A stretch of DNA of 64,000 bases, taken from contig JADFWU010000005.1 of NCBI GenBank assembly GCA_015234045.1, forward strand, positions 1 through 64,000, given 5' to 3'. The number at the start of each line of letters is the position of its first letter. Position 1 is the stretch's first letter. The stretch is from Magnetococcales bacterium (GTDB lineage: Bacteria > Pseudomonadota > Magnetococcia > Magnetococcales > JADFWU01). Below are positions 55,152 to 64,000 of the stretch, piece after piece. A model generated the notes under the pieces. That model was given only the letters and a program-made list of their open reading frames with translations. It made no database searches and was not told the DNA's origin. A program made the position numbers and the translations under genes.

Positions 55152-56555
55152 CTAAATATGTATCGCCTCACCAACAGCAGCCATGGCAGCTTCACGGATC
55201 GCTTCAGAAAGTGTTGGATGAGGTAATACAGTCTCCACTAATTGATGCCGGGTCCAGCCCGCACACAGCGCTGTGGTAACCGAGGCAATCAACTCTGATA
55301 CATGTGGTCCCAATAGATGACCACCGAGCAATTTCTCAGATTGAGCATCAAAAATCAGTTTTACCACACCGTCAGCATGGGTTGAACAACGCGCCCGACC
55401 ATTGGCCATAAAAGGAAAACTACCGATCAGGATATCCTTCCCAGACTGTTTTGCTTGTGCCTCTGTCAGGCCAACAGTAGCAATTTCCGGCTGGGTATAG
55501 ACCACAGCTGGAATATGTTCGTAATGGACCACACTGGTTCTTCCAACCATGCGCTCAACTGCAACAACCCCCTCCTCTTCGGCTTTGTGGGCCAACATCG
55601 GACCCGCCACCAAGTCGCCCACGGCATACACACCAGGACAGCTGGTTTGGTACGATGCATCAACGTTGATACGTCCTTGCCTATCCAAGTCAATACCTAA
55701 AGCGGACAGGCCAAGAGCGTTGCTGTTTGCTCGACGACCAACAGACACCAATACACACTCTGCGGTCAGATCCTGTTGTTGATCTTTACTGTCACGACAG
55801 GTGAGTGTAACCGCTGTTTCAGATACCACAGCTTTGGTGACACGCTGTTTGGTCATCAGTTTAAGCCCTTGTTTTTTATAGAGCCGTTTAGCATGACGGA
55901 CCAATGTGACATCAATTCCCGGCAAAATATCAGTCAGCGCTTCAACAACGGTCACCTTACAGCCGAGACGTTGCCAAACAGAGCCTAACTCCAAACCGAT
56001 CACACCTCCGCCAACCACGATCATCTGTTTTGGCGCCGTGGAAAAGGCCAGCGCATCTGTTGAATCAACAATGCGTTTTCCATCAAAAGGCATGAAGGGT
56101 AATTCGATTGGCACGCTGCCGGTAGCTAACAAAACCCGATTAGCCGTCAGGGTCGAGAGTGTTTCATCAGGATGGACCACCGTGATGGTGTTCGCACTTT
56201 CAAGGGAGGCCCGTCCAACAATGTGCTGGACTTTGTTTTTCTTGAATAGTTGGACAATACCACGTGACAATCCGGCAACAATTTTATCTTTACGCGCCAT
56301 CATGGCCGCTAAATTTAGACTGGGATTTTGGACATCAACACCATGTTCTGCCAGATCTTTTACACTGGTCTGCCAGAGAGAGGAAGATTCCAATAGTGCT
56401 TTTGAAGGAATACAACCGCGATTCAAACAGGTACCGCCAAGGCGTTGTTCCTGTTCAATGCAGGCGGTTTTCAAACCCAGTTGAGCAGCTCGAATTGCAG
56501 CTACATAGCCGCCAGGGCCACCACCGATTACGATAAGATCAAAAATGTTATCCAT
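55152..56555 (-). CDS. lpdA: Dihydrolipoyl dehydrogenase
   Basis: The E3 flavoenzyme of 2-oxoacid dehydrogenase or glycine cleavage complexes; it reoxidises lipoamide with NAD. The 467-residue protein has an FAD motif (DLIVIGGGPGGYVAA), the redox disulfide (GGTCLNRGCIPSK), an NAD motif (VVGGGVIGLELGSV) and the C-terminal HPTLSEA with the catalytic base. ATG 56555 sits just before the FAD motif; the frame is open to 56624. No E1 or E2 genes are nearby. Confidence 0.95.
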   Translation of the reverse strand: MDNIFDLIVIGGGPGGYVAAIRAAQLGLKTACIEQEQRLGGTCLNRGCIPSKALLESSSLWQTSVKDLAEHGVDVQNPSLNLAAMMARKDKIVAGLSRGIVQLFKKNKVQHIVGRASLESANTITVVHPDETLSTLTANRVLLATGSVPIELPFMPFDGKRIVDSTDALAFSTAPKQMIVVGGGVIGLELGSVWQRLGCKVTVVEALTDILPGIDVTLVRHAKRLYKKQGLKLMTKQRVTKAVVSETAVTLTCRDSKDQQQDLTAECVLVSVGRRANSNALGLSALGIDLDRQGRINVDASYQTSCPGVYAVGDLVAGPMLAHKAEEEGVVAVERMVGRTSVVHYEHIPAVVYTQPEIATVGLTEAQAKQSGKDILIGSFPFMANGRARCSTHADGVVKLIFDAQSEKLLGGHLLGPHVSELIASVTTALCAGWTRHQLVETVLPHPTLSEAIREAAMAAVGEAIHI

Positions 56556-56753
56556 AGCACCTTGATTGCATGACGAATGGAAGAAATCAGCGACAGGTCT
56601 GATAGACTCAATTAATGGATACAAGAATAGCTTGCGATAAATAGAGGGAATTGTGGCTTAAAGAGAGAGGACAGGCAAGTGGAAAATTTCAAATAAGCGG
56701 TGGATTACAAAGTAAAAAAATGAGTTGATACATATGAATATCAGTTATTCTTA

Positions 56754-56969
56754 TCACTTGGATAACAATTTTCCCATTTGGCAATTTTTTACCAGCTGAT
56801 AAAAATGGTTCAGCCGTTCTTGTTCTATAAAGGTATATTTATCATGCCACCAACGGTTAACGGTTTGTTCAGGCAGTTCCATATCCCGAGCCAACAGTCG
56901 AATCATGACTGCTTCTGACATTTTTGGGCCGTAGAGCATTTTACAGGCTTTTTGCAATGCCACGTTCAT
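56754..56969 (-). CDS. Small helix-turn-helix-like protein
   Basis: A 71-residue protein of no family I recognise. Residues 19-43 (AVMIRLLARDMELPEQTVNR) look like a helix-turn-helix, so it may bind DNA. ATG 56969 has AAGAG eight bases upstream. An imperfect dyad (57033-57048) lies about 65 bases before the start. It is downstream of, and in the same direction as, the AcrVA2-like gene, separated by 216 bases with no other gene. This recalls acr-aca pairs, but the gap is larger than usual. Confidence 0.6.
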   Translation of the reverse strand: MNVALQKACKMLYGPKMSEAVMIRLLARDMELPEQTVNRWWHDKYTFIEQERLNHFYQLVKNCQMGKLLSK

Positions 56970-57185: not shown

Positions 57186-58151
57186 TCAATATTTGGACGG
57201 AATCCATTTTATTGCTGGTCTTTTCATTGTTTTATGGGATTCATGTGCAACCCAGAACAGTTGCCAAGTGGCAGGGTGGATTGGTGGAATATAACTTCCT
57301 GAATCAACAGCGTTAAATTCTTTCTGTAACGCGAGTAAAGCGGCTTTTGAATCACACTGTTGCGCTTTGTTCATCAGTGTGCCAAATCGTTGGCCAAGAT
57401 GCCACTCAACTGGATTTTCAGGCGGGAAAAAACGTGGTCCTTTTTTTATTTCCCGTTCAGAAGACCGTTTAGGCAGGATAGAATAAGGAGTCTCTGGATC
57501 AGCGCCTTTCATGATTAATTCACGATTTTCCGCAATTAAATAAAGCACAGCAGAGATGAGAGATCCCAGCTTGATCTGCACGGCAGGAAGGCCGCCGGGT
57601 TCATTTTGAATAAGGTAAGCCCGTTTTGTTGAGAGTTTCTGAATGGTTTTGCGGATTGAAGACTCCAAACCATCATTGGCCAGAATGATTGGTATCGGTA
57701 TCAAGTCTCCTTCACTATTTTCCAGAAGCAGACGCAGTTCTCGATGTTTTAGCGTGTCATCAATATCAAGATGAGCAAAAAAACCGATGAGTTGATGACC
57801 AAATATGGAGATACAGCGCGGTAAAGAGAGATAGACACACCATTCAGGCAGAAGAAACAGTAACTTGATTGGCAGACGACCGCGAACTGGTGTGCGTAAT
57901 ATGGCGCGGAGCAGTTGTGGATGAAAACGGTAAACACCTTGGGTGCTGCGCCAAGCCGAAAGTGCTGCAATCTGAGCGGACAAATCAAGACGACTATCCA
58001 GACCCTTTTTTGCCAAATATCGGGCAATACGCTGAATAGGCACATAACACCAGTTTGGCCAGCTTTTCGCCAGATAAATCGCGTCTAGATCCCGCCAGAT
58101 TCCTGGAAACGCCAGTTCAATGCGCTTCAGATGCCGTGTTGGCTGGACCAT
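57186..58151 (-). CDS. AcrVA2-like protein (anti-CRISPR family homologue)
   Basis: A 321-residue protein. From my memory of the AcrVA2 sequence of Moraxella bovoculi (322 residues), shared motifs occur in the same order along its length: AWRSTQGVYR (66-75; AWRNTLGIYQ there), LPEWCVYL (101-108; LPDWCVYV), an IGFFAHLDI stretch, WHLGQRFG (250-257; YQIGERLG), and a C-terminal W-x3-W then KWIP (RWQP). AcrVA2 lowers Cas12a production during translation of its mRNA. Homologues are also known outside cas12a hosts. No cas genes or phage genes are near; flanking genes are nadC and the small HTH gene. Confidence 0.75.
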   Translation of the reverse strand: MVQPTRHLKRIELAFPGIWRDLDAIYLAKSWPNWCYVPIQRIARYLAKKGLDSRLDLSAQIAALSAWRSTQGVYRFHPQLLRAILRTPVRGRLPIKLLFLLPEWCVYLSLPRCISIFGHQLIGFFAHLDIDDTLKHRELRLLLENSEGDLIPIPIILANDGLESSIRKTIQKLSTKRAYLIQNEPGGLPAVQIKLGSLISAVLYLIAENRELIMKGADPETPYSILPKRSSEREIKKGPRFFPPENPVEWHLGQRFGTLMNKAQQCDSKAALLALQKEFNAVDSGSYIPPIHPATWQLFWVAHESHKTMKRPAIKWIPSKY

Positions 58152-58225: not shown

Positions 58226-59074
58226 CTATTTTTTCAAGCTCTTGTCTCCAATAATGCGCAAGGAAACATCTTTACTACCCGCACTGTGAGTCAACGCACC
58301 AACAGAGATCAGGTTTACACCAGTAGAGGCAATTTCACGCACAGTGGATAGCATGACATTACCACTGGCTTCGAGAATAGCCCGACCATCAACCAGTTGG
58401 ACAGCTTTTTCAATCTGCTTTAAGGTCATATTATCCAACAGAATAATCTGAGTGCCTGCGTCAATTGCTTCAGAGACCTGTTCCAATGTCTCACACTCCA
58501 CCTCAATCTGCTGAAGGTGGCAGGTTGCTTCACGTACTTGGTTGATTGCTTCGGTGATACCACCTGCGATGGCAATGTGGTTCTCTTTGATCAAAACACC
58601 GTCATCCAAGCCCATCCGGTGATTATGGCCACCACCAACCCGAACCGCATATTTCTGTAACAGACGCAAACCGGGCGTGGTTTTACGCGTATCTACCACT
58701 TTGGTCTGCGAGCCGGCGACTTGCTCAACGTATTGACGGGTAAGGGTGGCAATGGCTGAAAGGTTTTGCAAAAAATTCAACGCCACACGCTCGCCGGTCA
58801 GAATTGCCCGTCCCGGACCACGCAAGGTGCAAATGGTATTGCCGGCGCGCACACCTGTTCCATCCGGTGCCTCTGGTAACATGCGCACGCGCTTATCCAG
58901 TTGACGAAACACTTCCGCCATCATCGGAATGCCGCAAACAACCATATCCTCTTTGGCGATTACCACGGCTTCGATCTCACTGCCAGCAGGAATGAGCGTG
59001 TTGGTAGTTACATCGCCGCGACCGATATCTTCATTCAGCGCTGTTTTTACTATATCAGACCACATGGGAATCAT
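58226..59074 (-). CDS. nadC: Nicotinate-nucleotide pyrophosphorylase (carboxylating)
   Basis: Converts quinolinate and PRPP to nicotinate mononucleotide in NAD synthesis. The 282-residue protein has DTRKTTPGLR and KYAVRVGGGHNHRMGLDDG, with catalytic Lys and Arg residues in place. It starts four bases after the valS stop and is likely cotranscribed with it. nadA and nadB are not in the window. Confidence 0.96.
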   Translation of the reverse strand: MIPMWSDIVKTALNEDIGRGDVTTNTLIPAGSEIEAVVIAKEDMVVCGIPMMAEVFRQLDKRVRMLPEAPDGTGVRAGNTICTLRGPGRAILTGERVALNFLQNLSAIATLTRQYVEQVAGSQTKVVDTRKTTPGLRLLQKYAVRVGGGHNHRMGLDDGVLIKENHIAIAGGITEAINQVREATCHLQQIEVECETLEQVSEAIDAGTQIILLDNMTLKQIEKAVQLVDGRAILEASGNVMLSTVREIASTGVNLISVGALTHSAGSKDVSLRIIGDKSLKK

Positions 59075-59078
59075 ATCA

Positions 59079-61871
59079 CTAGCCTCGCAATGCCTGAATA
59101 CGTGTCAATGCTTCGGTCAGTCCGTTCTGTTTTTCTTTTAATTCATGCTCTTTATTACGTTCTTTTTCAACCACTTCTGGTTTGGCTCTCGAAACAAAGT
59201 TAGGGTTTGCCAGCTTTTTGATAACACGTCCAAGTTCATTATCAAGCTTTTTCAAACTTTTTTCCAGTCGAACCGCTTCTGCATCCAGATCAACCAGCCC
59301 TTTTAGTGGAATAAAAAGCGTCATTTGATCGATAACGGCAGTGGCACTGCCTTCTGGCTCAGTGGTTCCCGCCTCTTCCCATTCGCTCAACCGTGCCAGA
59401 TTGACGATGAAATCATTGTGGTCCCTCAGACGATTGATGGCCACGGTTTCACCTTGAACGATGGTCTTCAACCGCTTGCCCGGTGGAATGCCCATTTCAC
59501 CACGAATATTACGAACGGCCGTGACAAAATCCATCACCCAGTTCATTTCTTTATCAGCGGTTTCATCAATCAGCGCTTCATCCACAGTGGGCCAATTGGC
59601 CAACATGATGGAGGGGCCTTTATCACCGGTCAGAGGTGCCACTTTTTGCCATAACTCTTCGGTGATATACGGCATCAGAGGGTGTAGAAGTCGCAATGAT
59701 GTATCCAGCACATCTACCAAAGTCAATCGAGCCGCTAATTGCTTTTCAGCGGTGGCGTTCTCATCATAGAGTGTGGTTTTGACCAGTTCCAAATACCAGT
59801 CACAATAACTGCCCCAAAGAAATTGATAGATGCTGTTTGCCGCATCATTGAGACGATACTCATCAATGGCGTTGCCAACCTGGGTGATCACACGTTGAAG
59901 TTGTGAGCGTATCCAGCGTTCGGCAAATCCATTCTCTGGTTTGATCGACTGAGTGGTGAGGTCGTGATCTTCCACATTCATCAATACGAAACGCGTGGCG
60001 TTCCACAATTTATTGCAGAAGTTACGATAGCCTTCGATACGGCCCAGAGAAAATTTAATATCCCGTCCTTGGGTGGCAAGACTGGCCATGGTGAAACGCA
60101 ATGCATCGGTTCCGAACGCGGGAATTCCGTTTGGAAACTCCTTGCGAGTCGCCTTGGCGACTTTTTCCGCCAGGTGGGCTTGCATCATATCCTGGGTACG
60201 TTTTTTTACCAGAGGCTCCAACTCAATGCCATCAATGAGGTCCAGAGGGTCAAGCACGTTACCCTTGGATTTACTCATTTTGTTGCCTTCACCATCCAGG
60301 ATCAATCCATGGATATAGACCGTGTGAAAGGGCACCATATCGGTAAACTTCGTACCCATCATGATCATTCGGGCAACCCAGAAGAAAATGATATCAAAGC
60401 CAGTTACCAAAACATTAGTGGGATAGTGCTGTTGCAATTCGTTGGTCTGTTCGGGCCAACCCAAGGTTGAAAACGGCCACAATGCTGAAGAGAACCAAGT
60501 ATCCAGTACATCTTCATCCTGATTTAGCGTGACTTCTTTGCCATAATGTTCAGTGGCTGCCTGCATGGCTTCCGCTTCACTATGGGCAACAAAAGGTGTT
60601 CCATCTGGACCATACCAAGCGGGAATCCGATGTCCCCACCAGATTTGACGGGATATGCACCAGTCTTGAATATTGCGCATCCACTCGAAGTAGGTTTTGG
60701 ACCAGTTTTCCGGTACAAAACGAATACGGCCATCCTCAACAACCCGAATAGCTTCTTCAGCAAGGGTTTCCGCTTTTACAAACCATTGATCAGTCAGAAA
60801 AGGTTCAATAACCGTTTTTGAGCGATCCCCGCGTGGTACCATCATGGTGTGGGGTTCGATCTTCTCCATGAGACCCTGTTGCTCGAGATCGGCAACGATT
60901 TTTTTACGGGCATCATAACGGTCCAGATCCCGGTATGCTTCAGGACAGACCTCATTCATTTTGGCATCAATGGTTAGGACATTGATGATTTCCAGATCAT
61001 GTCGCTTGCCCACTTCATAGTCATTGAAATCATGGGCGGGTGTGATTTTTACACAACCGGTGCCAAACTCAGGATCAACATAGTCATCGGCAATGATGGG
61101 AATTTCGCGGTCAGTCAGCGGTAGTTTGACCATCTGACCAATCAATTTTTGATACCGCTCATCATCAGGGTGGACCGCAACAGCTGTATCACCGAGCATT
61201 GTTTCCGGGCGGGTTGTAGCAACAATCAGGTGTCCAGAGCCGTCTGCCAATGGATAGCGCATGTGCCAGAAGTGGCCCTGCTCTTCTTCGGAGAGTACTT
61301 CAAGATCGGATACTGCGGTGTGTAATACTGGGTCCCAGTTTACCAGCCGCTTCCCACGATAGATCAATCCCTCTTCATGGAGTTTAACAAACACTTCACG
61401 CACAGCGGTGGAGAGGTGCTCATCCATGGTAAACGCTTCGCGGGACCAGTCGCAGGAGGCACCCAACCGACGCAATTGATTGACAATGGTACCACCAGAG
61501 GTATTACGCCATTTCCAGATTCGTTCAATAAAGGCATCACGGCCCAGGTCATGCCGACTTTTTCCTTCCCGCTCCAGTTGTCGCTCGACCACCATTTGGG
61601 TTGCTATGCCCGCATGGTCAGTACCGGTCTGCCAAAGGGTGTTATCCCCTTTCATGCGATGAAAACGAATCAACGCGTCCATAATGGTATCTTGGAAAGC
61701 GTGCCCCATGTGCAGGCTTCCGGTCACGTTTGGCGGTGGAATCATGATGCAATAGGACGGTGCAGAAGCATCACCAGAAGGGGCGAAGTAACCGCTCTCC
61801 TCCCATTTTTTATACCAGCGCTGTTCTACACTGGCTGAGTCGTAAGTTTTGGGCAAAGATGGTTCGGACAT
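59079..61871 (-). CDS. valS: Valyl-tRNA synthetase
   Basis: A 930-residue class I synthetase. HMGH (HIGH-type, in [16 protein letters not shown]), [12 protein letters not shown], the [19 protein letters not shown] region and a C-terminal coiled coil (about 865-930) are all present, as is an editing domain ([17 protein letters not shown]). The start ATG 61871 is at the family N-terminus. It heads valS-nadC on the minus strand. Confidence 0.97.
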
Positions 61872-62082: not shown

Positions 62083-64000
62083 TTAATCAGTCTTGATGCG
62101 GGCAAGCTCTTCTGCAACGGCCTTTTCCAGCATTTCTGGGAGCATCTTACGCGCCAACTCTTCAGCCGCTTTACGGGCCATGGCTTCGATCTTGTCGCCA
62201 AATAGCGCTTTAACCTGATCCGTGGTCAATACCGTGAGGATATCGGGTTTACCGTCGGTTTCCTCAGGTTCAGACACTTCGGCGGTTTCAGGTTCAGGTG
62301 CTTCAGCGGTTTCAGGTTCAGGCGCTTCAGCGGCTTCAGGTTCAGGTGCCGGTTGTTCAGTAGATTCTGTTACATCTGCATTTGTCTCATTCGAGGGTGT
62401 TTCGTCTTCCATGGCGGCCTCGATTTCGTTGACATCAGACTCTGCGGCCTCAACCTCTGTGGTTTCCGGTTCAGATTCTGATAGGGGTTCGTCAGTGGCT
62501 TCAGCAACCTCGGGTTGGGCCTCCCTGGCCTCTTCCGCAGCCTCAGTTTCAGGCTGAGATTCTACAGGTGCTTCTTTACTGACCTCGTCTTCCTGGGCAG
62601 TCTCTTCTGTCACAGATTCGGAATCGGCTTCTACTTCATCTTCATCAGCATTCAGTGATTGGACAGCTGCTTCCAAGAGATCCTCTTCACTCATGATCTC
62701 ATCAACAGCCTCTTCTAAAGACTCATCGGCGGTTGGATCAGATTCTGGAGTGGTTTCTTCATTTTCTTCCAAAATATCATCAACTACAGATTCAGAAACA
62801 GAATTTGCTTCAACGCCCTCTTCTTCGGATTCTTCCACGAGTGCTATTGATTCTGCTTCACTCAGAGCTTCTGTCATATCTGGATCAGAAGAGGTTTCAA
62901 TGACTTCTTCCAATTCGGCCTCAGGAGCTGATTCAACTTCTGACTCAGGTTCACAAACGGCTTCAACTTCGGGCTCAGGCTCAGTAACCGCTTCAACCTC
63001 AACTTCAGCTTCAGGGGTCGTTTCAACGTCTGGCTCAGGCTCAGGAGCGGCTTCAAATTCAGGCTCAGGAGCGGCTTCAACTTCAGGCTCAGGAGCGGCT
63101 TCAACTTCAGGTTCAGTAGCGGCTTCAACTTCTGGCTCAGGTTCAGGAGCCGCTTCAACTTCAGGTTCAGGAGTCGCTTCAACTTCGGGCTCAGGCTCAG
63201 GAGCGGCTTCAACTTCAGGTTCAGTAGCGGCTTCAACTTCGGGCTCAGGCTCAGTAGCCGCTTCAACTTCAGGTTCAGGTTCAGGAGCCGCTTCAGGTTC
63301 AGGTTCAGGTTCAGGAGCCGCTTCAACTTCGGGCTCAGGCTCAGGAGCGGCTTCAACTTCAGGTTCAGTAGCGGCTTCAACTTCGGGCTCAGGTTCAGGA
63401 GCCGCTTCAACGTCTGGCTCAGGCTCAGGAGCGGCTTCAACTTCAGGTTCAGTAGCCGCTTCAACTTCGATCTCAGGCTCTGGAACTGCTTCAATTTCAG
63501 CTTCGGATTCAGGAGAAGATTCAGAAATTATTTCTTTTTCTTCAGCGTTTTGCGTGTCATCATCCCAGGAAGAGAATGAATCCGAACCAGCATCCGGTGC
63601 GAGAGAGAGTTCATCAGTTGCTTTAGAATCCGTGCTATCGTCTTCGTCCTGCCACGGCTCAAAATCAGCTTCTACAGGAGTGAGGATTTCCGAATCATCT
63701 TCATCACCAGCAAGATCTAATGGTTCAGGGTCAGCCTCTAACACATCATCCAATGCATTATCAATTGCTTCGCTCTCAACCGGTTCATCAACTTCAACTG
63801 GACTCTCTTCATCATCATCCAATAAATCATCAATTTCGTCTGAATCAAGTGCTTCGATATTTTCTTCAGAGTTAAGATCAGTGCTTGGATCTTCGGAGGT
63901 TTCATCTTCATCTAGCAAGGCATCAACATTAGCAAGATCCAACGCCTCTTCAGCGACTTCAGCAACCGGCTCCTCGGGAATCTCTTCCTCGTCTTCATCT
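62083..64000 (-). CDS. Very acidic repeat protein, 5' end beyond the window
   Basis: The frame is open to the window edge, so the N-terminus is missing; at least 638 residues are seen. Almost all are Glu, Asp, Ala, Pro, Val and Ser. The core is a tandem array of PEPEVEAA-type units, probably disordered. The last 55 residues differ: a helical domain ([20 protein letters not shown], then [20 protein letters not shown]) that may bind partners. The in-frame TTG at 63942 is not a start, as acidic sequence continues before it. Function is unknown. Confidence 0.8.
62937..63490 (-). repeat. Imperfect tandem repeats in the acidic protein gene
   Basis: Units of about 24 bases, such as GGCTTCAACTTCAGGCTCAG on the plus strand, repeat roughly twenty times with variants, encoding (A/T)PEPEVEA units. 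Some units are shortened by six bases. Long near-identical stretches point to recent expansion or contraction, always in multiples of three. Confidence 0.9.

Follow-up and report, generated by a model that had tools for sequence, protein, structure and literature searches.

The plasmid fertility inhibitor FinQ belongs to the same protein family as the anti-CRISPR AcrVA2, and a divergent member of this family stands among housekeeping genes on the chromosome of a Magnetococcales bacterium. The chromosomal gene is read here, with a probability of roughly 0.55, as an old gene of mobile-element origin preserved on the chromosome: its protein would retain the peptide-binding body of the family while the presumed mRNA-decay module is disabled, making it an effector-dead, repurposed binder and no inhibitor of Cas12a. 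The more valuable result is the family-level link between AcrVA2 and FinQ, together with its C-terminal signature. This link would join two phenomena that have been studied separately, anti-CRISPR and plasmid fertility inhibition, and the question of how FinQ removes tra mRNA, which dates from 1989, would become testable with the tools of AcrVA2, and vice versa.

The gene lies in a window of 64,000 nucleotides (the whole stretch of DNA that was analyzed, from contig JADFWU010000005.1), where it and the genes beside it occupy the following positions.

55152-56624, minus strand: lpd, dihydrolipoamide dehydrogenase (Pyr_redox_2, E 1e-66), part of the context
56754-56969, minus strand: 71-aa HTH-like ORF (HTH_26, E 0.0036, below the cut-off), 217 bp downstream of the gene under study
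57186-58151 including the stop codon, minus strand: AcrVA2/FinQ-family protein, 321 aa, assigned by phmmer, PHROG 6160 and fold
58226-59074, minus strand: nadC, by Pfam, upstream of the gene under study
59079-61871, minus strand: valS, by Pfam, upstream of the gene under study

The gene has an ATG start and an intact frame of 321 codons. When the protein was searched as a single sequence with phmmer against 177,635 distinct PDB sequences, AcrVA2 (7ci1/7ci2) was the sole significant match (E 2.2e-7). Matches were also obtained to PHROG 6160, an unnamed phage family without assigned function (E 2.2e-23), and to plasmid homologues at up to E 9e-37, covering 98% of the length. A family profile recovers the ORF at 6e-95, but the window sequence is itself in that profile and the independent test is the phmmer match to 7ci1. 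Pfam, NCBIfam and PADLOC were searched and hold no model for the AcrVA2/FinQ family. The family signature residues W67, R68, G72, Y74, L101, P102, W104, Y107, G123, G253, G257 and W316 are all present in the protein. It is near certain that the ORF is a true but divergent relative of AcrVA2. This agrees with the first-pass annotation, whose ordered motifs are genuine signatures of the family; the near-equal length that it reported is confirmed, and the profile searches gave no better match to an unrelated family. Its further statement that the likeness extends over the whole length holds for the alignment, which spans all of the protein, but not for the last ~37 residues, which are without the family's most conserved motif. 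Two fainter signals were set aside. A relation to YheS appears in the C-terminal part only (NCBIfam E 0.0045, PDB E 0.06), far below curated cut-offs, and was judged to be chance because two other family members were scanned without such a match. A Knl-2-like match in Pfam (E 0.12) is also far below its curated cut-off.

The predicted structure of the protein is that of AcrVA2. An AlphaFold2 model computed from 80 family sequences and no templates reached a pLDDT of 91.7 and a pTM of 0.90. Foldseek with this model against the PDB returned AcrVA2 only (E 6e-17), and VIA-align against 7ci1 gave Z 24.3 with an rmsd of 3.5 over 269 residues, the next unrelated row standing at Z 2.5. A relative beyond AcrVA2 that could name the biochemistry was listed by neither Foldseek nor VIA-align, and the C-terminal consensus alone, compared with the PDB by sequence, also found AcrVA2 only. 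Following the domain division of AcrVA2 (PMC10846135), the protein can be divided as follows.

57957-58151, minus strand: N-terminal helical domain, residues 1-65, with 7 of 8 near-invariant residues kept
57360-57956, minus strand: central domain, the main body, residues 66-264, with 25 of 30 near-invariant residues kept
57189-57299, minus strand: C-terminal module, residues 285-321, with 2 of 9 near-invariant residues kept
57261-57284, minus strand: motif position, residues 290-297, reading P-I-H-P-A-T-W-Q, all four conserved residues replaced

The central domain of AcrVA2 is reported to bind a Cas12a peptide, in the complex 7CI2 described in PMC13131331. The losses in the window protein are concentrated in the C-terminal module, where the share of near-invariant positions kept (2/9) contrasts with that elsewhere (32/38; Fisher p 7e-4).

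The C-terminal module of the family carries H-x-R-x-x-H-x-H, a signature defined in this analysis and with no published definition. It is present in 134 of the 136 distinct full-length members, AcrVA2 and FinQ included, where full-length means that the match reaches the C-terminal end, which itself demands some similarity there. The motif was not used for selection in this count or in the genome scan; one of the two patterns in the viral scan includes it, and alignments A3 and A4 consist of members picked for having it, so that their invariant columns overstate it. Of the 136, just a Lactobacillus phage protein, which differs at the last motif position alone, and a member with a Phage_integrase domain depart from the signature. 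In the window protein, the four conserved residues read P, H, T and Q. A frameshift hiding the motif was considered and rejected, as no other reading frame of the gene encodes it, and no frame-shifted remnant is present either. The motif loss lowers the claim of AcrVA2-like activity and leaves homology untouched. The beta hairpin of the module is still predicted, and W296 and W316 are retained. Natural losses of the module, together with conservation in almost all other members, make the four motif residues the likely effector site of the family; no published test of these residues was found in the papers searched. Unusual C-terminal or domain arrangements were also observed. The protein of Desulfogranum mediterraneum (L140:5899-6921), encoded near an aminotransferase-like gene, also has a degenerate C-terminal module, and trees place it, with weak support, near the window protein. 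In a Bacillota MAG (L126:5968-7671), an AcrVA2-like ORF continues in frame with a phage-integrase domain to give 568 aa.

Natural loss of the module is seen in a clade of Methylococcaceae proteins (L145:5914-6846, L166:2975-3880 and L167:4640-5509); in L179, of the same clade, the gene is cut by its contig end. The module-less clade is monophyletic with support 1.0, and its dN/dS of 0.17-0.34, a figure that belongs to this clade and not to the window gene, indicates that the body alone can be maintained. ParA/ParB-like genes are found near L166, L167 and L179, which accordingly look plasmid-borne. In the tree, this clade and the window protein stand apart, so the module was lost independently in the two.

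Members of the AcrVA2/FinQ family were found on phages, plasmids and genomes of many phyla, the carriers including Pseudomonadota, Bacillota, Deinococcota, Myxococcota, Acidobacteria, Nitrospirae, Bacteroidota, Spirochaetes, Synergistaceae, Planctomycetes and Actinomycetota. A survey in 2019 had recorded AcrVA2 homologues in two phyla (PMC6739104), and huge phages have been reported with proteins that cluster with AcrVA2 (PMC7162821). The commonest neighbors of family genes are integrases and recombinases, and no operon partner is universal across the family loci. At L119, L122, L030, L045 and L062, a pair of DUF3440/PAPS-reductase and ParB_N genes (IbrA/IbrB-like) lies directly upstream of the AcrVA2-like gene. 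On the Thioflavicoccus plasmid pTHIMO01 (L015:5541-9017), pglZ, brxL and a small ORF precede the AcrVA2-like gene, an arrangement that gives it the look of a terminal BREX operon gene. Cas12a was detected in 0 of 58 genomes that carry a family member, with 3 of 61 Moraxellaceae positive in the control of the same search. The general function of the family must therefore be something other than Cas12a inhibition.

FinQ was reached by tblastn with the C-terminal consensus, which matched the IncI1 plasmid protein FinQ on several hundred plasmids from Escherichia, Salmonella, Shigella and Klebsiella; with FinQ itself as the query, the number of matching plasmid records is 564. As a member of the family FinQ is full-length (186.6 bits against the family profile, positions 64-324); it matches AcrVA2 by phmmer at E 3.6e-17, and its direct similarity to the window protein is weak (45.8 bits). 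FinQ and AcrVA2 both keep HIRRGHWH and group together in the tree with support 0.76. On plasmid pHUSEC2011-1, finQ (L229:3110-4171, plus strand) is annotated with too late a start, giving 260 aa instead of 354 aa. Among the papers searched, none names FinQ together with AcrVA2 or with anti-CRISPR. The name of anti-CRISPR homologue given earlier to the window gene is thus correct as to AcrVA2 homology but too narrow, as the family exceeds Cas12a hosts and includes FinQ; the suggestion of an older or wider role is strongly supported at the family level.

FinQ lowers tra-operon mRNA, an effect described as Rho-independent transcription termination (PMC8744291), and AcrVA2 recognizes the nascent N-terminal Cas12a peptide and triggers loss of the cas12a mRNA (PMC13131331). 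According to a meeting report, AcrVA2 can also be directed to tagged enzymes (PMC12908700). By these published mechanisms, each protein reduces one particular mRNA belonging to a rival or defense system, tra in the case of FinQ and cas12a in the case of AcrVA2, and the two may share one mechanism. A broader proposal, which is offered tentatively and is rather doubtful in its full extent, is that AcrVA2, FinQ and hundreds of unnamed phage and plasmid proteins form one family of co-translational mRNA silencers directed against rivals or defenses, composed of a peptide-reading body and an H-x-R-x-x-H-x-H effector module. Under this proposal, the termination ascribed to FinQ would be translation-coupled decay of tra mRNA, and the window gene would encode a chromosomal version with a dead effector, which might act as a decoy shielding transcripts from silencers of this kind. 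If true, this mode of action would reach beyond CRISPR, to many phyla and to carriers among which the search found no Cas12a.

The chromosomal setting of the window gene is that of housekeeping functions. The host genome comprises 3.65 Mb in 117 contigs and is 93% complete. Pfam names the flanks of the gene as miaA, PilZ, rlmKL, CDGSH and lpd on one side and nadC and valS on the other, in line with the description of the locus (nadC, valS and lpd, with no phage genes) in the first-pass annotation. The surroundings of the gene were found to contain neither an integrase nor a phage gene, and no tRNA close by; the marks of insertion looked for at the gene amount to short imperfect repeats, and the one tRNA, at 297-373, is far off. 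In all 29 relatives of the order Magnetococcales that were examined, valS adjoins nadC, and in none of them does an AcrVA2-like gene stand behind nadC. Because the valS-nadC pair is order-wide and the AcrVA2-like gene has its place behind nadC in the host only, the gene is most simply an acquisition of the host's lineage. Nine other Magnetococcales genomes have a family match at other places, some of them fragments or broken frames (G004, G006, G011 and G027). The codon usage of the window gene resembles that of its neighbors, which fits long residence. The 71-aa HTH ORF downstream belongs to an unnamed regulator family that has six copies in the host genome and is matched in 15 of the 48 genomes of the order; an Aca-like regulatory role for it finds no clear support, as it is one of six genomic paralogues, and it is probably unrelated to the window gene. 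On the other side, adjoining valS, an acidic protein of 619 aa with long E/P/A repeats and no assigned function is encoded at 62083-63942 (minus strand).

How would such a gene have come to be kept? It would have entered the host's Magnetococcales lineage from a mobile element, to stand now behind valS-nadC, and its protein would have been kept intact, with the N-terminal and central domains holding the AcrVA2 fold. A short peptide, which may be nascent, would be bound by the central domain of the family, and mRNA decay at the ribosome would normally be performed or recruited by the C-terminal module, a role suggested for this module by conservation; the window copy would then bind without triggering decay. 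A copy of this kind would be functional and domesticated. The kept-binder reading is drawn from the intact ORF, the native-like codon usage, the kept fold and the concentration of losses in the C-terminal module. It was further examined by simulations of neutral decay, each of which continued until the C-terminal module equaled that of the window protein in the number of key residues lost, and 0 of 300 simulated genes were free of stops (mean 11 stops), an argument that local replacement of the module in a few steps would weaken.

The main alternative is that the gene is a relic of a mobile element, captured, deprived of its function and drifting before its first stop codon, and this deserves a substantial minority of the weight. 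The window protein is divergent in all domains, its identity to the family consensus being the third to fifth lowest of 80 in the first two domains and the lowest in the third, and its branch is one of the longest in the tree, in which its placement has weak support and shifts with the sequence set used. The divergence of the first two domains and the long branch also fit relaxed constraint, against the kept-binder reading, and the lost motif, the broken or fragmentary copies in other Magnetococcales and the failure to detect Cas12a in the host would all be expected of a relic. However, a relic accords poorly with a frame open over 321 codons with native-like codons, with the high-confidence predicted fold, with losses concentrated in one module and with the outcome of the simulations. 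The kept, repurposed binder is favored over the relic at about two to one; of the two readings raised by the first-pass annotation, domesticated inhibitor and relic, the domesticated one, though no more than probable, fits the window copy better.

It is unlikely, if conceivable, that the window protein is a still-active silencer, which would cause specific mRNA decay through a changed C-terminal site, its target being not Cas12a but something else in the host or in an element. The predicted hairpin and the two retained tryptophans of the module would suit this, as would the work of the family in hosts without Cas12a, but each of the four motif residues, near-invariant in members from different phyla, has been replaced. 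Activity against Cas12a itself is very improbable in spite of the homology to AcrVA2. Searches of the host genome, of which that for cas12a had been named at the outset as a check, detected neither Cas12a nor Cas1, nor a TnpB/Cas12f zinc-ribbon gene, within the limit that an absence from a genome of this completeness is not absolute; a TnpB or Cas12f target gave no match in 8 Magnetococcales carrier genomes, with the control working. The lost C-terminal motif, the chromosomal housekeeping setting and the result for the 58 carriers also speak against such activity. That the protein is no kin of AcrVA2 and its motifs are due to chance or to another family can be dismissed, since nothing weightier than the YheS and Knl-2-like signals favors it, sequence, profile and fold comparisons all point to AcrVA2 alone, and the fold (Z 24 versus 2.5 for the next unrelated chain) already refutes it.

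The window protein can be compared with its four closest known systems. AcrVA2 from Moraxella prophages (7CI1, 7CI2) shares with it the fold, the ordered residues of the first two domains and a near-equal length, but AcrVA2 keeps HIRRGHWH and acts on the Cas12a of its host, whereas the window protein is without the motif and is chromosomal in a host where no Cas12a was detected. FinQ is of the same family, but is plasmid-borne, keeps HIRRGHWH and acts on plasmid transfer genes. Among phage proteins, PHROG 6160, which the window protein matches, is tied by this analysis to both AcrVA2 and FinQ. The Methylococcaceae members resemble the window protein in having kept the N-terminal and central domains and lost the motif; in them, however, the module is missing outright, whereas in the window protein it is present but altered.
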